Shown piece after piece: positions 6,996-12,356 of a stretch of 64,000 bases of DNA. The position numbers and the translations under genes are program-made. The notes under the pieces are model-generated. The model was not told the origin of the DNA, searched no databases, and saw only the letters and a program-made list of their open reading frames with translations. Source of the DNA: Dissulfurirhabdus thermomarina (GTDB lineage Bacteria > Desulfobacterota > Dissulfuribacteria > Dissulfuribacterales > Dissulfurirhabdaceae); contig NZ_JAATWC010000001.1 of assembly GCF_012979235.1 (NCBI RefSeq), forward strand, positions 439,001-503,000, written 5' to 3'. Positions within the stretch are counted from its first letter, which is position 1, and each line of letters begins with the position of its first letter.

Positions 6996-8468
6996 ATGCG
7001 CAACGAGTCCGTACTGGTCGTGGACGATGCACCGGAGATCCGGGCGTTTTTGACCGAGCTCCTCCAGGGGGAGGGCTTTGCCGTGGAGACGGCCACCGAT
7101 GGCCAGGAGGCCATCGAGATGCTCGAAGGTCGGTTCTTTGACGTGGTCTTGACGGACGTCAACATGCCCCGGAAGGACGGCATGGCCGTCCTGGACTACA
7201 TCCAGGAGCATTCCCCGGACAGCATCTGCATCCTCGTGACCGGGTACGGCTCCATCCGGGACGCGGTGGAGGCCATGCGGAAAGGGGCCTTCGACTACCT
7301 CACCAAGCCGGTGAAGGCCGAGGAAGTGGCCCTGGTCATCGAGCGGGCGCTGGAGGTCCGGGAGCTGCGCCGCGAAAACCAGAACCTCAAGAAGGAACTG
7401 CGCACCCGGTACGGGTTCGACCGCATCGTGGGCGCCAGCCCCGCCATGCAGGACCTCTTCGACCTCATCGAGAAGGTGGCCGACACCGAGAGTACCGTGC
7501 TCATAACCGGTGAGTCCGGAACGGGCAAGGAACTCATCGCCCATGCCATCCACTTCGCCAGCGACCGGCGCGACAATTCCTTCATCCCCATCAACTGCGG
7601 CGCCATCCCCCCGGAGCTCCTCGAGAGCGAGCTCTTCGGGCACGAGAAGGGGGCCTTCACCCATGCCATCCGGACCCGGATCGGCCGGTTCGAACTGGCC
7701 AACAAGGGGACCATCTTCCTGGACGAGGTGGGCGAGATGAGTCCCGCCCTCCAGGTGAAGCTCCTCCGCGTCCTCCAGGATCGGCAGTTCGAGCGCGTGG
7801 GCGGCGTCCGCACCATCCGGGTGGACATCCGGGTCATCGCCGCCACCAACATCGACCTCGAGGAGGCGGTCCGCGAGGGCCGCTTCCGGGAAGACCTCTA
7901 CTACCGCCTCAACGTCATCCCCATCCACGTGCCGCCCCTCCGGGAGCGGGTCTCGGACATCCCGCTCCTCGTCCAGCACTTCCTCGAGCGGTTCCGCCAG
8001 AAGAACCGGGGTCGGCTGGAGCGGGTGGCGGAGGACGCCATGCAGTGCCTCATGGCCTACGAGTGGCCCGGCAACGTCCGGGAGCTCGAGAACCTCATGG
8101 AGCGCATGTCCATCCTGGCCAGCGGCCCGGTGCTGACGGCCCAGGACTTGCCGGCCTCCTTCACCCGGGCCACCGGCTACCCCCTCTCCGAGGGCATCCC
8201 GGTGCCCGTCCCGACCCTGCCGGAGGAGGGCCTCTCCCTGAACGCCGCGGTCCAGACCTTCGAGAAGAACCTCATCCTCCAGGCCCTGGACCGGACGGGC
8301 GGGGTCAAGAACCGGGCGGCCCAGCTCCTGCGGCTCAACCGGACCACCCTGATCGAAAAGATGAAGAAACAGCGCCTCATGACCCCGGCCACCCGGGGTC
8401 GGGGAGGGCGCCCGGCCAAGAAGAAGCCCGAGGGGACGGCCCCGTCCCGGGCCGCCGCCGGTGCCTGA
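6996..8468 (+). CDS. NtrC-family sigma-54-dependent response regulator
   Basis: A 490-aa activator with three domains. The receiver domain (5-120) has Asp54 in VLTDVNMP as phospho-acceptor. The AAA+ domain (about 145-375) has Walker A GESGTGKE near 172 and Walker B TIFLDEVGEM. A Fis-type helix-turn-helix near 425-465 (NRAAQLLRLNRTTLIEKMKK) binds DNA. The sigma-54 contact loop, normally GAFTGA, reads GAFTHA near residue 219. No kinase gene is adjacent. Its own promoter region holds a palindrome that may allow autoregulation. The basic Lys/Arg-rich tail after the helix-turn-helix is unusual. Target genes cannot be told; flagellar, hydrogenase or unlinked genes are all possible. Confidence 0.93.
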   Translation: MRNESVLVVDDAPEIRAFLTELLQGEGFAVETATDGQEAIEMLEGRFFDVVLTDVNMPRKDGMAVLDYIQEHSPDSICILVTGYGSIRDAVEAMRKGAFDYLTKPVKAEEVALVIERALEVRELRRENQNLKKELRTRYGFDRIVGASPAMQDLFDLIEKVADTESTVLITGESGTGKELIAHAIHFASDRRDNSFIPINCGAIPPELLESELFGHEKGAFTHAIRTRIGRFELANKGTIFLDEVGEMSPALQVKLLRVLQDRQFERVGGVRTIRVDIRVIAATNIDLEEAVREGRFREDLYYRLNVIPIHVPPLRERVSDIPLLVQHFLERFRQKNRGRLERVAEDAMQCLMAYEWPGNVRELENLMERMSILASGPVLTAQDLPASFTRATGYPLSEGIPVPVPTLPEEGLSLNAAVQTFEKNLILQALDRTGGVKNRAAQLLRLNRTTLIEKMKKQRLMTPATRGRGGRPAKKKPEGTAPSRAAAGA

Positions 8469-9336
8469 GGTGCCTGCCTTGCCGGCGGCGACGGCCGGTC
8501 CCGGCGCCTCCCGGGCCGGGCGGCCGGGGTGGCTCCTGGTCCTCCTCGGGCTGGTCCTGGCGGGGGCGGCTTCGGCCGTCGCCGCTCCGCCGGAAACAGG
8601 GGAGCTTCGGGTCCTCGTGCTTCCCTTCGAGGTCCCGGCCGCCGAGGCCCGCCTCGCCCACCTCGATCTGGCCCTCCGGGACGTGCTGGCCGGCCGGCTC
8701 GAGCAGGAGGGGGACATCCTCTGCCGCGGCGGCGCGGAGCGGTCGACCGATGCCTCGGCGGCGCACCTGTCGGAGCTCGCCCGGCACGCCGGTGTGGACT
8801 TCGTGGTGGCGGGCCGGGTCGAGGCGGTGGCCGGCGGCCGCTACGTGGTGACCCTCCGGGCCGTCTCGGCCGCCGCCGGCGGCCCGGAAGGGGTCATCGC
8901 CGGGGAGCCGGCGCCCCTGGACGGGCTCCACGGGCAGCTCAAGCGGCTGGCCCGCCGCGCGGCGGGGTTCCTCCGGCGGCCCTACGCCGCGCCCCCGGGG
9001 GCGTCCCAGGCCCCGGCCGCGGCGGCCATCCCGTTCCCCGGGGAGCCCCCCGGGCGCCTCCATCCCGACCTGCTGGTCCCACCGCCCGAGGTGACGGCGA
9101 GCAGCGCCTCCGCTGCGCTTCCGGCCGCCGGGGCCTCCGCGGCCGGCGGGCAACGGGGCTGGTTCAACTGGATCTTCGGCGGCCGCCGGGCCCCGGCGGC
9201 CCGAGCGGACGGCTTGCCCTATCCTCCCCCGGAAGAGGTCGCGTCCCCGGAGGATGCAGCGTCTCCGGGCCCGGAAAGGGCCGCGGCGGGCAACGAGACC
9301 GGGGCGCCCCGGGGGGCACGCTGGCAGTGGCGTTGA
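8461..9336 (+). CDS. Exported protein with a FlgO/TolB-N-like domain
   Basis: A 291-aa protein with a late N-terminal hydrophobic segment (about 23-42, ending ASAVAA) that reads as a signal peptide or anchor. Residues 48-165 show the pattern LRVLVLPFEV, a helix, an L-R-DVL-RL helix, then GVDFVVAGRVEAV and YVVTLRAV, which resembles the alpha/beta fold of FlgO/TolB-N-type periplasmic proteins. The rest is Pro/Ala-rich and low in complexity. The GTG start at 8461 overlaps the upstream regulator stop by 8 nt, so the genes are probably co-transcribed. I cannot name a function. A related pattern occurs in the lipoprotein at 54547. Confidence 0.65.
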   Translation: MPEVPALPAATAGPGASRAGRPGWLLVLLGLVLAGAASAVAAPPETGELRVLVLPFEVPAAEARLAHLDLALRDVLAGRLEQEGDILCRGGAERSTDASAAHLSELARHAGVDFVVAGRVEAVAGGRYVVTLRAVSAAAGGPEGVIAGEPAPLDGLHGQLKRLARRAAGFLRRPYAAPPGASQAPAAAAIPFPGEPPGRLHPDLLVPPPEVTASSASAALPAAGASAAGGQRGWFNWIFGGRRAPAARADGLPYPPPEEVASPEDAASPGPERAAAGNETGAPRGARWQWR

Positions 9337-9345
9337 GCCAGCCCC

Positions 9346-10434
9346 TCAGGGGGCCGCGGCGGGCCGTTCCTCCACCCGCACCTTGGCGGTGGTCCGCCGG
9401 CCGTCCCGGTAGAGGGTGAGCGTCACCTCGGTGCCGGGCTTGCGCCCGTCGATCATCTCCTCCAGGGCCGCCGCAGAGGCCACGTCCTTCCCGTCCACGG
9501 CCACGATGACGTCGCCGCCCACGCGGTGGGTGCGGTTTCCGAGGTGGACGGTCTTCATCCCCGCCCGGAGGCCGGCATCGAGGGCGGGCCCCTGGGGGAA
9601 GAGGCGGGTCAGCACCGCGCCTCTTTCCACGGGAAGCCCGGTGAGGCGGGCCAGGGCCGGGGAGAGGGTCTCGAACTCCGCCCCCAGCCAGGCGTGGAGG
9701 ACGTAGCCGTCCGCCAGGAGCCCGGGGACGATCCGCTGGAGGACCTCGGCGGACACGGCGAAGCCGATCCCCGCAAGGGCTCGGGTGTCGGCGAAGGCGA
9801 GGCTGCACATCCCGATCACCCGGCCGGAGGAGTCCAGGAGGGGGGCGCCCTCGGCCCCGGGATGCACGGGGATGTCGGTCTGGAGGACTCCGCGGATTTT
9901 CAGGCCGGCGCGGGTTCGGAGGGTGCGGCCCTTGGCCGCGAGGAGCCCCTCGGCCAGCTGTGGTCCCTCGCCGAAGGGATCGCTCACCCGCCAGACGCGC
10001 TGGCCCACGGCCAAGTCCCGCGCCTGGCCGAGGAGCAGGGGCGGCAGGCCGGCCAGGACCTTCTTCGGGGCCCGGATCTCCACCACCGCGATGTCGGTGG
10101 CCGGGTCGGCTCCTACGAGCCGGGCGGGCCAGCGGCGCCCGTCCCGGGTGGTGACCTCGAGGGACTGGCCGTCGCCCACCGCGCCGCAGCTCGTCACCAC
10201 GTGGCCGTGGTCGTCCAAGACGAAACCGCTGCCGGTGCCCTTTTCCGGCACGGGGTGCCAGGCGAACCCGGGTTCCTGCTGGGTGCTGGTGATGTTGACG
10301 ACCCCGGCGGCGGCCTTTCGGAAGAGGAGGATCGTCGCTTCTTCTCCGGGGGTGAGCCCGGCCGCGGGGGGCGGGACCAGGAGGGCGGCCAACACCGCGG
10401 CGAGGACCGCCGGGGAAAGGCGGTGGGGCGTCAT
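9346..10434 (-). CDS. HtrA/DegP-like protein lacking catalytic His and Ser (probable pseudoprotease)
   Basis: A 362-aa periplasmic protein: signal peptide 1-26 (ending PAAG), trypsin-like domain about 40-235 and PDZ domain about 255-352. The HtrA framework is clear (GTGSGFVLDD, ATDIAVVEI, VSDPFG, LQTDIPVHPG). The usual TNxHVV is replaced by TSCGAV, with Gly84 in the His place, and GNSGGPL by GAEGAPL, with Glu195 in the Ser place; Asp114 is kept. Proteolysis by the normal mechanism is not expected, so a chaperone, adaptor or sensor role through the PDZ domain is more likely. It overlaps uppP by 4 nt and would share its transcript. Confidence 0.85.
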   Translation of the reverse strand: MTPHRLSPAVLAAVLAALLVPPPAAGLTPGEEATILLFRKAAAGVVNITSTQQEPGFAWHPVPEKGTGSGFVLDDHGHVVTSCGAVGDGQSLEVTTRDGRRWPARLVGADPATDIAVVEIRAPKKVLAGLPPLLLGQARDLAVGQRVWRVSDPFGEGPQLAEGLLAAKGRTLRTRAGLKIRGVLQTDIPVHPGAEGAPLLDSSGRVIGMCSLAFADTRALAGIGFAVSAEVLQRIVPGLLADGYVLHAWLGAEFETLSPALARLTGLPVERGAVLTRLFPQGPALDAGLRAGMKTVHLGNRTHRVGGDVIVAVDGKDVASAAALEEMIDGRKPGTEVTLTLYRDGRRTTAKVRVEERPAAAP

Positions 10435-11231
10435 GCGGCGCTCCCCCAGAGGAGCAGCGCGGCCACCACCCCGGCCAGCACGATGCGGTAGTAGGCGAAG
10501 GGGTGGAAGGTGTGCCGGGCGAGGTAGGCGAGAAGCCAGGAGATCACCGCGTAGCCGGCGACGAAGGCGGCCAGGGTGCCCCAGAGGACCTCGGGCCCCG
10601 GGCCGGCGGTGCCGTTGAGCAGCTTGTGGCCTTCGTGGAGGCCGGCACCGGCGATGATGGGCGCGGAGAGGAGGAAGGAGAACCGGGCGGCCTCCGCCCG
10701 GCGAAAGCCGAGGAACAGGGCGGCGGTCATGGTGATGCCGCTCCGGGAGACCCCGGGCACGATGGCGAGGGCCTGGGCGAGGCCGATGACGGCGGCGTCA
10801 CGCCAGTCGAGGGCGGCGAGGGTGCGGTCCCGGCGGGCGACGCCCTCGGCCGCGAGGAAGAGGGCCCCGACGCCGGCCAGCGTGGCCGCGACCACCCAGG
10901 GGCTTCGGAGGGTGGTCGCGGCGAGGTCGTCCAGGAGGTAGCCGAAGACGCCGCCCGGGATGGTGGCCAGCACGAGGAGGGCGAGGAGGCGCCGGTCGCC
11001 GGTCGCCCCCCGCCCCGGGACCAGGGCCTCGGCCATGTGCCACCACTCCCGCCGGAAGTAGAGCAGGACCGCCGCCAGGGTCCCGAGGTGGAGCATGACG
11101 TCGAAGGCGAGCCCCCCGCCGGCAAGGCCGAGGAAGTGCTCGGCGAGGAGGAGGTGCCCGGAGCTCGAGACGGGGAGGAACTCCGTGGCCCCCTGGAGGA
11201 GGCCGAGGAAGACGGCTTCTGGCGAGGTCAT
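10431..11231 (-). CDS. uppP: Undecaprenyl-diphosphatase (UppP/BacA family)
   Basis: A 266-aa polytopic inner-membrane enzyme that converts undecaprenyl diphosphate to the monophosphate lipid carrier for peptidoglycan and other surface polymers; it also gives bacitracin tolerance. Signature motifs are present: the N-terminal GATEFLPVSSSGHL with the catalytic Glu, and PGVSRSGITM in the second half. Length and helix number are normal for the family. First gene of a minus-strand pair with the HtrA-like gene (ATGA overlap). Its promoter candidate (11278-11307) overlaps that of nagZ. Confidence 0.95.
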   Translation of the reverse strand: MTSPEAVFLGLLQGATEFLPVSSSGHLLLAEHFLGLAGGGLAFDVMLHLGTLAAVLLYFRREWWHMAEALVPGRGATGDRRLLALLVLATIPGGVFGYLLDDLAATTLRSPWVVAATLAGVGALFLAAEGVARRDRTLAALDWRDAAVIGLAQALAIVPGVSRSGITMTAALFLGFRRAEAARFSFLLSAPIIAGAGLHEGHKLLNGTAGPGPEVLWGTLAAFVAGYAVISWLLAYLARHTFHPFAYYRIVLAGVVAALLLWGSAA

Positions 11232-11339: not shown

Positions 11340-12356
11340 ATGATCGACGCGGGGGGCACCCGCCCGGGGGCCGTGGTGATGGCGGGGCTGCCGGGGCCGG
11401 AGCTGGACACGGCGACCCGGGAGCTCATCCGGCGGGGCGGAGTGGGGCACTTCATCCTCTTCGCCCGGAACGCGGTCTCGCCGGGCCAGGTGCGGGATCT
11501 CGTCCTCGCCCTGGAAGACGAGTGCCGGTCGGCCGGGCTGCCGCCGCCCCTCGTGGCCGTGGACCAGGAGGGCGGCCCGGTCCAGCGCCTGGCCCCGCCC
11601 GCCTGGCCGGCCCTGGTGTCGGCGGCCGAGGTCGGGGCGTCTCCGGACCCGGCGGCCGCTTCGGCCGCCCAGGGCATGGCGGCGGCCGAGGTCCTCCGTC
11701 CCGCCGGCATCCGCCTGAACCTCGCCCCGGTGTTGGATCTCGCCCCGGCGGGAGTGGAGGGCGTCCTCGCCGGTCGGACCTACGGCGACGACCCGGCGGC
11801 CGTGGCCCGCGCAGGGGCCGCCTACGTCCGCGCCCTCCAGGCGGCGGGGGTGGGCGCCACGGCCAAGCACTTCCCGGGCATCGGCCGTGTGGGCGGGGAC
11901 CCCCACGAGGTCCGGCCCCGGGTGGAAGCCCCGGCGGAGGTGCTCCGGGCGGAGATGCTCCCGTTCCGGGCTGCGGTGGCGGCGGGGGTGGCCGCGGTCA
12001 TGACCTCCCACGTGGTCTACCCCGCCCTGGACCCCGACCGCCCCGCCACCTTCTCGGAGCGGATCGCCCGGGGGCTCCTCCGGGAGGAACTGGGCTTCGA
12101 GGGGCTTCTTCTCACCGACGACCTGGAGATGGGCGGTGTCCTGGGGTACGAAGACGTGGGAGAGGCCGGTCTTTCGGCCCTGGCGGCGGGCCACGACCTT
12201 CTCCTCGTCTGCCACCGGGCCGACCGGGCCTGGCGCGTCGTGGAGGCCCTGGAGCGGGGCCTCCGGGACGGCCGGCTCCCCGAGGGCCGCCTCATCGACG
12301 CCGTCCGGCGCATCGACGCCGCCCGGGGCCGTCTTGCCCGGGCGGTGTCCTCCTAG
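11340..12356 (+). CDS. nagZ: Beta-N-acetylhexosaminidase, glycoside hydrolase family 3 (NagZ-like)
   Basis: A 338-aa cytoplasmic enzyme that removes N-acetylglucosamine from GlcNAc-anhydroMurNAc peptides during cell-wall recycling. Family motifs are AVDQEGGPVQRL, AKHFPGIGRVGGDPH (with the His of the flexible catalytic loop) and LLTDDLEMGG containing the nucleophilic Asp. No signal peptide, as expected for NagZ. The ATG at 11340 follows a GGAGGCGAAGG site; longer frames cross the promoter. It is divergent from uppP and overlaps the TauE/SafE gene by 4 nt at the 3' end. Confidence 0.92.
   Translation: MIDAGGTRPGAVVMAGLPGPELDTATRELIRRGGVGHFILFARNAVSPGQVRDLVLALEDECRSAGLPPPLVAVDQEGGPVQRLAPPAWPALVSAAEVGASPDPAAASAAQGMAAAEVLRPAGIRLNLAPVLDLAPAGVEGVLAGRTYGDDPAAVARAGAAYVRALQAAGVGATAKHFPGIGRVGGDPHEVRPRVEAPAEVLRAEMLPFRAAVAAGVAAVMTSHVVYPALDPDRPATFSERIARGLLREELGFEGLLLTDDLEMGGVLGYEDVGEAGLSALAAGHDLLLVCHRADRAWRVVEALERGLRDGRLPEGRLIDAVRRIDAARGRLARAVSS

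Follow-up and report, generated by a model that had tools for sequence, protein, structure and literature searches.

Introduction

Plant Deg1 and Deg8 are active chloroplast proteases, and we know of no link between them and the undecaprenyl-diphosphate phosphatase UppP. By both sequence and fold they are the closest solved structures to the protein described here, an HtrA-like protein encoded next to uppP in Dissulfurirhabdus thermomarina. DegS, DegP and DegQ have the same fold and domain order as this protein, and DegS shares with it a single PDZ domain and an N-terminal hydrophobic segment. Unlike all three, our protein lacks the catalytic His and Ser and falls far below the NCBIfam cut-offs for DegS and Do.

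HtrA pseudoproteases have been described in magnetotactic bacteria, where MamO and degenerate copies of MamE have independent origins in three groups (PMC4794232). The proteins studied here resemble them in joining a trypsin fold to a degenerate triad, in being kept under selection and in having lost the triad in several lineages (PMC4794232). As in MamO, whose membrane part is TauE-like, they can be joined to a polytopic membrane protein (PMC4794232). They differ in setting, since MamO binds metal and acts in magnetite formation (PMC4794232) whereas the partner here is UppP and the neighbouring genes are those of the cell envelope. They also differ in layout: in the UppP fusions the membrane part is N-terminal, and the PDZ domain is the best-kept part.

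A second point of comparison is E. coli PBP1B, which couples physically with PgpB and BacA and so speeds recycling of the lipid carrier (PMC6053597). The arrangement reported here likewise appears to couple a C55-PP phosphatase to another envelope protein, but PBP1B is a peptidoglycan synthase (PMC6053597) whereas the partner here is a dead HtrA/PDZ protein encoded in the same operon or chain. Our search of open PubMed Central titles and abstracts (subscription papers lie outside it) for UppP, BacA or undecaprenyl together with HtrA, PDZ, trypsin-like, pseudoprotease or fusion returned no such pair. The pairing is real, recurrent and under selection; HtrA pseudoproteases are known, and the UppP setting is new.

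Results

An HtrA-like gene overlaps uppP

The window, by which we mean the whole 64,000-nucleotide stretch analysed, has a G+C content of 71-72% and comes from a genus that NCBI places in the class Dissulfuribacteria, phylum Thermodesulfobacteriota. The features used below are as follows.

9346..10434, minus strand: HtrA-like pseudoprotease gene, 362 aa (open reading frame and translation, Pfam, model)
10357..10434, minus strand: N-terminal hydrophobic segment, residues 1-26, a putative signal peptide or membrane anchor (sequence)
9727..10245, minus strand: trypsin-like domain, residues 64-236 as used for counts (Pfam, structural matches)
9370..9687, minus strand: PDZ domain, residues 250-355 (Pfam, DegS alignment, conservation)
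10183..10185, minus strand: Gly84 codon, catalytic His position (alignment with L002)
10093..10095, minus strand: Asp114 codon, retained catalytic Asp (alignment with L002)
9850..9852, minus strand: Glu195 codon, catalytic Ser position (alignment with L002)
10431..11231, minus strand: uppP (bacA), undecaprenyl-diphosphate phosphatase, 266 aa (Pfam BacA, 1.7e-80; NCBIfam UppP TIGR00753 above cut-off)
10431..10434, minus strand: four-base overlap ATGA of the uppP stop (TGA) and the htrA-like start (ATG) (sequence)
11340..12356, plus strand: GH3/NagZ-like glycosidase, divergent neighbour (Pfam Glyco_hydro_3 on 11412-12356)

The HtrA-like frame starts with ATG and encodes an N-terminal hydrophobic helix, a trypsin-like domain (Pfam Trypsin_2, residues 68-209, 1.6e-27) and one PDZ domain (PDZ_2, residues 250-354, 3.5e-12). 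The helix lies at residues 8-19 in the structural model, at low pLDDT in that stretch, and the N-termini of the listed unfused relatives are hydrophobic as well. Within the PDZ domain, the WLGA loop aligns to YIGI of DegS, and the LGNR...VGGDVIV stretch is conserved across the family. The upstream uppP has both active-site motifs intact, and the genome search found no other BacA-type UppP. The ATGA overlap suggests translational coupling of the two genes.

On the other side of the pair, a convergent gene (8461-9336, plus strand) overlaps the end of a sigma-54 type response regulator. Neither this gene nor a 580-residue gene in the corresponding position of locus L064 has a Pfam match, and the similarity between the two is weak (27% over 132 residues, E 3e-7). 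It is a fast-evolving envelope protein gene whose position is conserved.

The HtrA fold is kept and two triad residues are gone

The preliminary description of this DNA, made from the letters alone, had proposed an intact HtrA framework and PDZ domain in which the catalytic His is Gly84, the catalytic Ser is Glu195 and only Asp114 remains. The Pfam domains and an AlphaFold2 model agree on the framework, and alignments with L002 (a DegP-like paralogue of the same genome with its triad intact), with the solved Deg1, Deg8 and DegS structures and with relatives return Gly84/Asp114/Glu195 in place of His/Asp/Ser. The flanking motifs align with L002 without gaps (VVTSCGAV to ILTNNHVV and HPGAEGAPLL to NPGNSGGPLL). 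A third trypsin-like protein of this genome, L003 (1216-2241 of G000 contig 5), also has intact triad motifs, so that both paralogues in the window genome keep HDS; no PDZ was seen on inspection of the L003 translation.

The usable model (mean pLDDT 84.9, pTM 0.78), for which 13 sequences including HtrA relatives were aligned, shows an ordinary HtrA fold; a single-sequence model with pLDDT 44.6 was discarded. It matches Deg, DegS and DegP structures with Z of 28-34, including Deg8 4ic6_A (Z 33.7, 314 residues, rmsd 2.6) and DegS 3gdv_C (Z 31.2, 293 residues, rmsd 2.5). From the alignments and this fold match it follows that the catalytic His and Ser have not moved to another place in the structure; structure prediction and the Deg alignment bear out the preliminary reading. 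The protein has the HtrA/Do architecture, trypsin-like domain then PDZ, with Trypsin_2 and PDZ_2 above the Pfam cut-offs, and lacks the His-Asp-Ser triad of the HtrA/Do serine proteases. Its NCBIfam scores lie below the curated cut-offs for Do (TIGR02037, 194.1 vs 416.2) and DegS (TIGR02038, 142.8 vs 422.95).

These data bear on two alternatives. First, the protein might still be a protease that uses a displaced nucleophile or another catalytic set in the same fold. Asp114 is retained, and in one relative, L133, a Tyr/Asp/Cys triad supplies a nucleophile. Against this, neither His nor Ser occurs at or beside the two positions in the window protein, the replacements vary in nearly every lineage with no common alternative residue, and the protease domain is now the less constrained part (see below). 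A search of the triad loops across the family turned up no common substitute set of catalytic or metal-binding residues, and we regard residual proteolysis as very improbable.

Second, the protein could be a metal-binding scaffold of the MamO type. MamO is a protein of a comparable kind, an inactive HtrA linked to a membrane protein (TauE; PMC4794232), and Cys83 of the window protein lies beside Gly84. In MamO, however, the residue immediately before Asp149, at the catalytic position, is the metal ligand His148 (PMC4794232), whereas the window protein has Thr at the metal-ligand position and lacks the di-histidine motif His before the Asp. This residue, Thr113, is Thr in 93% of triad-lost rows, and the NCBIfam MamO score is 46.4 bits vs a cut-off of 800. 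A role of this type seems highly doubtful.

The pair is conserved across the order and the triad is not

We searched all 46 genomes of the order with a profile of 39 relatives and with the window UppP. A uppP and an htrA-like gene share one fetched region in 36 of them, on the same strand with uppP upstream in 36/36. The genes lie apart in five genomes (G005, G014, G027, G029 and G039) and probably also in G002, where the pieces are at contig ends; a cut contig leaves linkage in G019 uncountable, and the search did not find one or both genes in G021, G028 and G045. The UppP motifs are intact in 58 of 62 loci. The usual divergent neighbour is a GH3/NagZ-like gene, relatives of the window gene at 11340-12356 adjoining the pair at many other loci of the order.

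Among the 39 readable, unfragmented copies (a count made without G013, G002, G017 and G039), the triad is lost in 29 and is His-Asp-Ser (HDS) in 10, eight of these from family f2 and two from f8. The lost combinations include GDE (the window protein), QDA, NDS, QQI, TTE, DGN and EGR, and further HDA, SDM, SGD, RGD, NGS and VRN. The preliminary description had raised the question of whether the same substitutions and the uppP linkage recur in relatives. The linkage does; the substitutions do not, different residues replacing the triad in almost every lineage. Because 10 of the 39 orthologues keep the full triad, inactivity does not define the family, and judged from these sequences triad loss is instead a repeated outcome within it.

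Two copies are broken: that of G013 (L080 and L054, on two contigs) reads His, Asp, Asn in a split gene, and that of G017 (L076, 48-985) lies in two overlapping frames through a frameshift or an assembly error. In L056 and L068 (G008 and G023), the open frame of the UppP match runs to 646 and 619 aa, far beyond the first reading; in these loci the two genes seem to share a frame and to be separated by a stop codon, which brings them near to fusion.

The exceptions to linkage are also instructive. In family f5, uppP sits between recD2 and the htrA-like gene; in f6 (G005) these two outer genes are direct neighbours, and uppP is missing from between them. At L046 and L052 (G014 and G005, both f6) the locus has lost the family uppP but kept the pseudoprotease, and the only UppP match of these two genomes is elsewhere and divergent (36-38% identity). 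Since the f6 locus keeps the pseudoprotease after loss of uppP, the protein can persist without a local UppP. In genus g19 (G027, G029 and G039) it is likewise unlinked. Retention of the pseudoprotease without a local uppP in f6, and unlinked in g19 and probably G002, counts against reading it as a partner of UppP.

The pair recurs in a second class

A phylum-wide profile search (395 genomes, E at most 1e-72) gave matches in 95 genomes, 78 of them outside the order; 61 of the 78 were fetched and read, as 60 regions and L044. Strongly diverged members escape this search (the copies of f72 and f39 surfaced only in a class search), so that linkage outside the order is counted as a minimum. Of the 60 regions, 58 are HDS, one is YDC (L133) and one is unreadable. 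Retention of HDS in these outside relatives, and in both paralogues of the window genome, marks the loss in the window protein as exceeding chance. Six of the 60 regions contain uppP: five of family f28, and L133. The f28 loci (L083, L085, L086, L089 and L092) have a triad-intact htrA directly downstream of uppP. An active-type HtrA can thus be linked to uppP, and, as the 10 order copies keep the triad too, the UppP link does not require inactivity.

L133 comes from another class, which we take to be Thermodesulfobacteria. We searched 41 genomes of this class and fetched 20 regions, 15 of which have the htrA-like gene with uppP, as ten adjacent pairs and five fusions. The triad is lost in all 15 copies, with the combinations PER, PDR, EGE, PEV, YGG, HGG, FGG, PEG and SEY, or in 16/16 counting L133. 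As for the other five regions, L147 is a fusion running off its contig, L158 is truncated at the end of its contig, and the fetched regions of L159-L161 yielded uppP but no htrA-like gene. Here the pair is flanked by CorA and a methyltransferase; because the flanks differ between the two classes, the pair is a unit that has been kept. One contig scan returned only a distant actinobacterial HtrA (L033), and no relative turned up when viral sequences were scanned with the family alignment; both are uninformative on distribution.

UppP and the HtrA-like protein occur as single chains

Nine complete in-frame UppP::HtrA-like chains were found, all of them triad-lost (L051, L055, L057, L133 and L142-L146), with L051, L055 and L057 inside the order. 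Among the five fusions run against Pfam, L051, L055, L057 and L133 give the order BacA, Trypsin_2, PDZ; in L143 only BacA and PDZ are detected, the protease part no longer scoring. The Tyr/Asp/Cys fusion L133 (4977-6737, minus strand) lies in the single-contig genome G305, which has a second family match at C1:764957-765901.

The C-terminus of E. coli BacA/UppP is periplasmic, and a full-length BacA-beta-lactamase fusion retains phosphatase activity (PMC4641660). Since E. coli BacA ends in the periplasm, the HtrA part of the natural fusions would face that compartment. By this analogy the fusions make topological sense, and the HtrA part would sit beside the active face of UppP, where C55-PP is dephosphorylated. 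Contact with UppP is established in the fusions alone, as a covalent link; in the case of the window pair we infer it from the overlap, the conserved linkage and the fusions. The coupling to uppP that had been noted from the window therefore extends from the ATGA overlap to linkage across the order, a second class and single-chain fusions.

Alternatively, the protein could act as a chaperone or holdase without proteolysis, or as a regulatory subunit of the cell's own active DegP-like protease, and its adjacency to uppP could reflect shared expression under envelope stress rather than contact. The genome does encode an active-type DegP-like paralogue (L002), the gene is kept unlinked in f6 and g19, and MamO activates the protease MamE without catalysis (PMC4794232). 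Nine UppP fusions and a linkage that recurs in two classes with different flanks are, however, hard to explain by co-expression alone, and we consider this account unlikely.

The triad was probably lost repeatedly, and constraint moved to the PDZ domain

To place these changes we used a 77-row tree from an alignment stripped of its triad columns, with the fusions trimmed to their last 335 residues. Fragments (L054 and L076-L081), L101 (unreadable frame), L003, L002 and L075 were left out of the counts, and 22 triad-intact rows were kept as outgroup. All members from the order and the second class, the window protein among them, form one 55-row clade (support 98/99). The f28 pairs branch outside it at an unresolved fork, so that either the uppP link predates triad loss or it arose twice.

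Under a rule that forbids regain, the best tree requires nine losses, and 300 bootstrap trees require 6-11. Under equal-weight parsimony 4 changes suffice, with a single ancient loss and later regains, and we judge the regain of full triads unlikely. A single clade of all 45 triad-lost rows was rejected (p-AU 7.5e-6), weakly so once L039 and L043 are removed (p 0.039). L051 has lost only Ser and L043 only His; because the first residue lost differs, these two at least are separate events. From the sequences we claim several independent losses, and not exactly nine.

Triad loss had been read in the window as selected rather than as decay. We computed dN/dS (Nei-Gojobori) over the last 320 codons, using triad-lost pairs with pS under 0.7. 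Eight such pairs give 0.05-0.20, in the range of triad-intact pairs (0.03-0.22), and the mixed pair L042/L043 (HDS and NDS) gives 0.22. These sequence-based ratios indicate purifying selection on the triad-lost relatives and agree with the earlier reading for them; the window protein is without a relative close enough for a rate of its own.

Relaxed selection would instead make these genes ones on the way out, kept expressed by their operon position. The scatter of triad residues and the gene split in two frames in G017 point this way, but the low dN/dS values, the invariant PDZ and structural residues, the presence of the gene in nearly all genomes of the order and the fusions all speak against it, leaving this explanation with hardly any likelihood.

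We then compared conservation of the PDZ and protease domains with the triad loops excluded; the pairs share ancestry and are not independent. The PDZ domain is the more conserved in 375/406 triad-lost pairs of the order and 110/120 pairs of the second class, and in just 4/45 triad-intact pairs of the clade and 3/231 outside pairs. In the triad-lost proteins the PDZ domain has replaced the protease domain as the more constrained part, and the reversal is large. PDZ residues Gly-Asn (299-300), Asp308 and Gly251 are invariant in the triad-lost rows of both classes. Gly251 sits in the loop aligned to the carboxylate-binding loop of DegS.

Discussion

Taken together, the computed fold, lost triad, selection, linkage, fusions and shift in constraint support reading this protein as a partner of UppP. 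Judged from sequence, it is probably a dead, membrane-tethered, periplasmic HtrA/DegS-like protein that serves as a non-proteolytic partner of the UppP of its own operon, most likely as a scaffold or ligand-responsive regulator. The preliminary description had proposed a scaffolding or regulatory role in lipid-carrier recycling: UppP as the partner is well supported, and the mode of action is a matter of inference only.

A possible course of events begins with an active protease encoded next to uppP. The need for catalysis would have been lost many times while the binding function stayed, the useful part being binding through the PDZ domain and not cutting. The PDZ domain may bind a peptide ligand, such as the C-terminal end of a peptidoglycan synthase or of some envelope protein, and this binding could either dock UppP where undecaprenyl diphosphate is released or change UppP activity. 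Docking would place UppP where the wall is being made, in the manner of E. coli PBP1B with PgpB and BacA (PMC6053597).

More tentatively, UppP and its dead HtrA/PDZ arm may form a ligand-gated phosphatase, in which an envelope signal read by the PDZ domain throttles or directs precursor flux with no sigma factor cascade. The arm would then be a periplasmic DegS-type sensor stripped of its protease output and coupled straight to the enzyme limiting the supply of undecaprenyl phosphate, a conversion made repeatedly and with gene fusion as the final stage in three or more families.

Undecaprenyl diphosphate phosphatases determine how much carrier is available for peptidoglycan and other envelope polymers, and little is known of how bacteria regulate them. 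A dedicated periplasmic partner, available as natural single-chain UppP fusions, would make their regulation directly testable in E. coli. After the magnetosome proteases, this family is a second well-sampled case in which HtrA catalysis has been lost repeatedly with the protein kept, and a single order holds the intermediates: triad intact, one residue lost, all lost, and fused.
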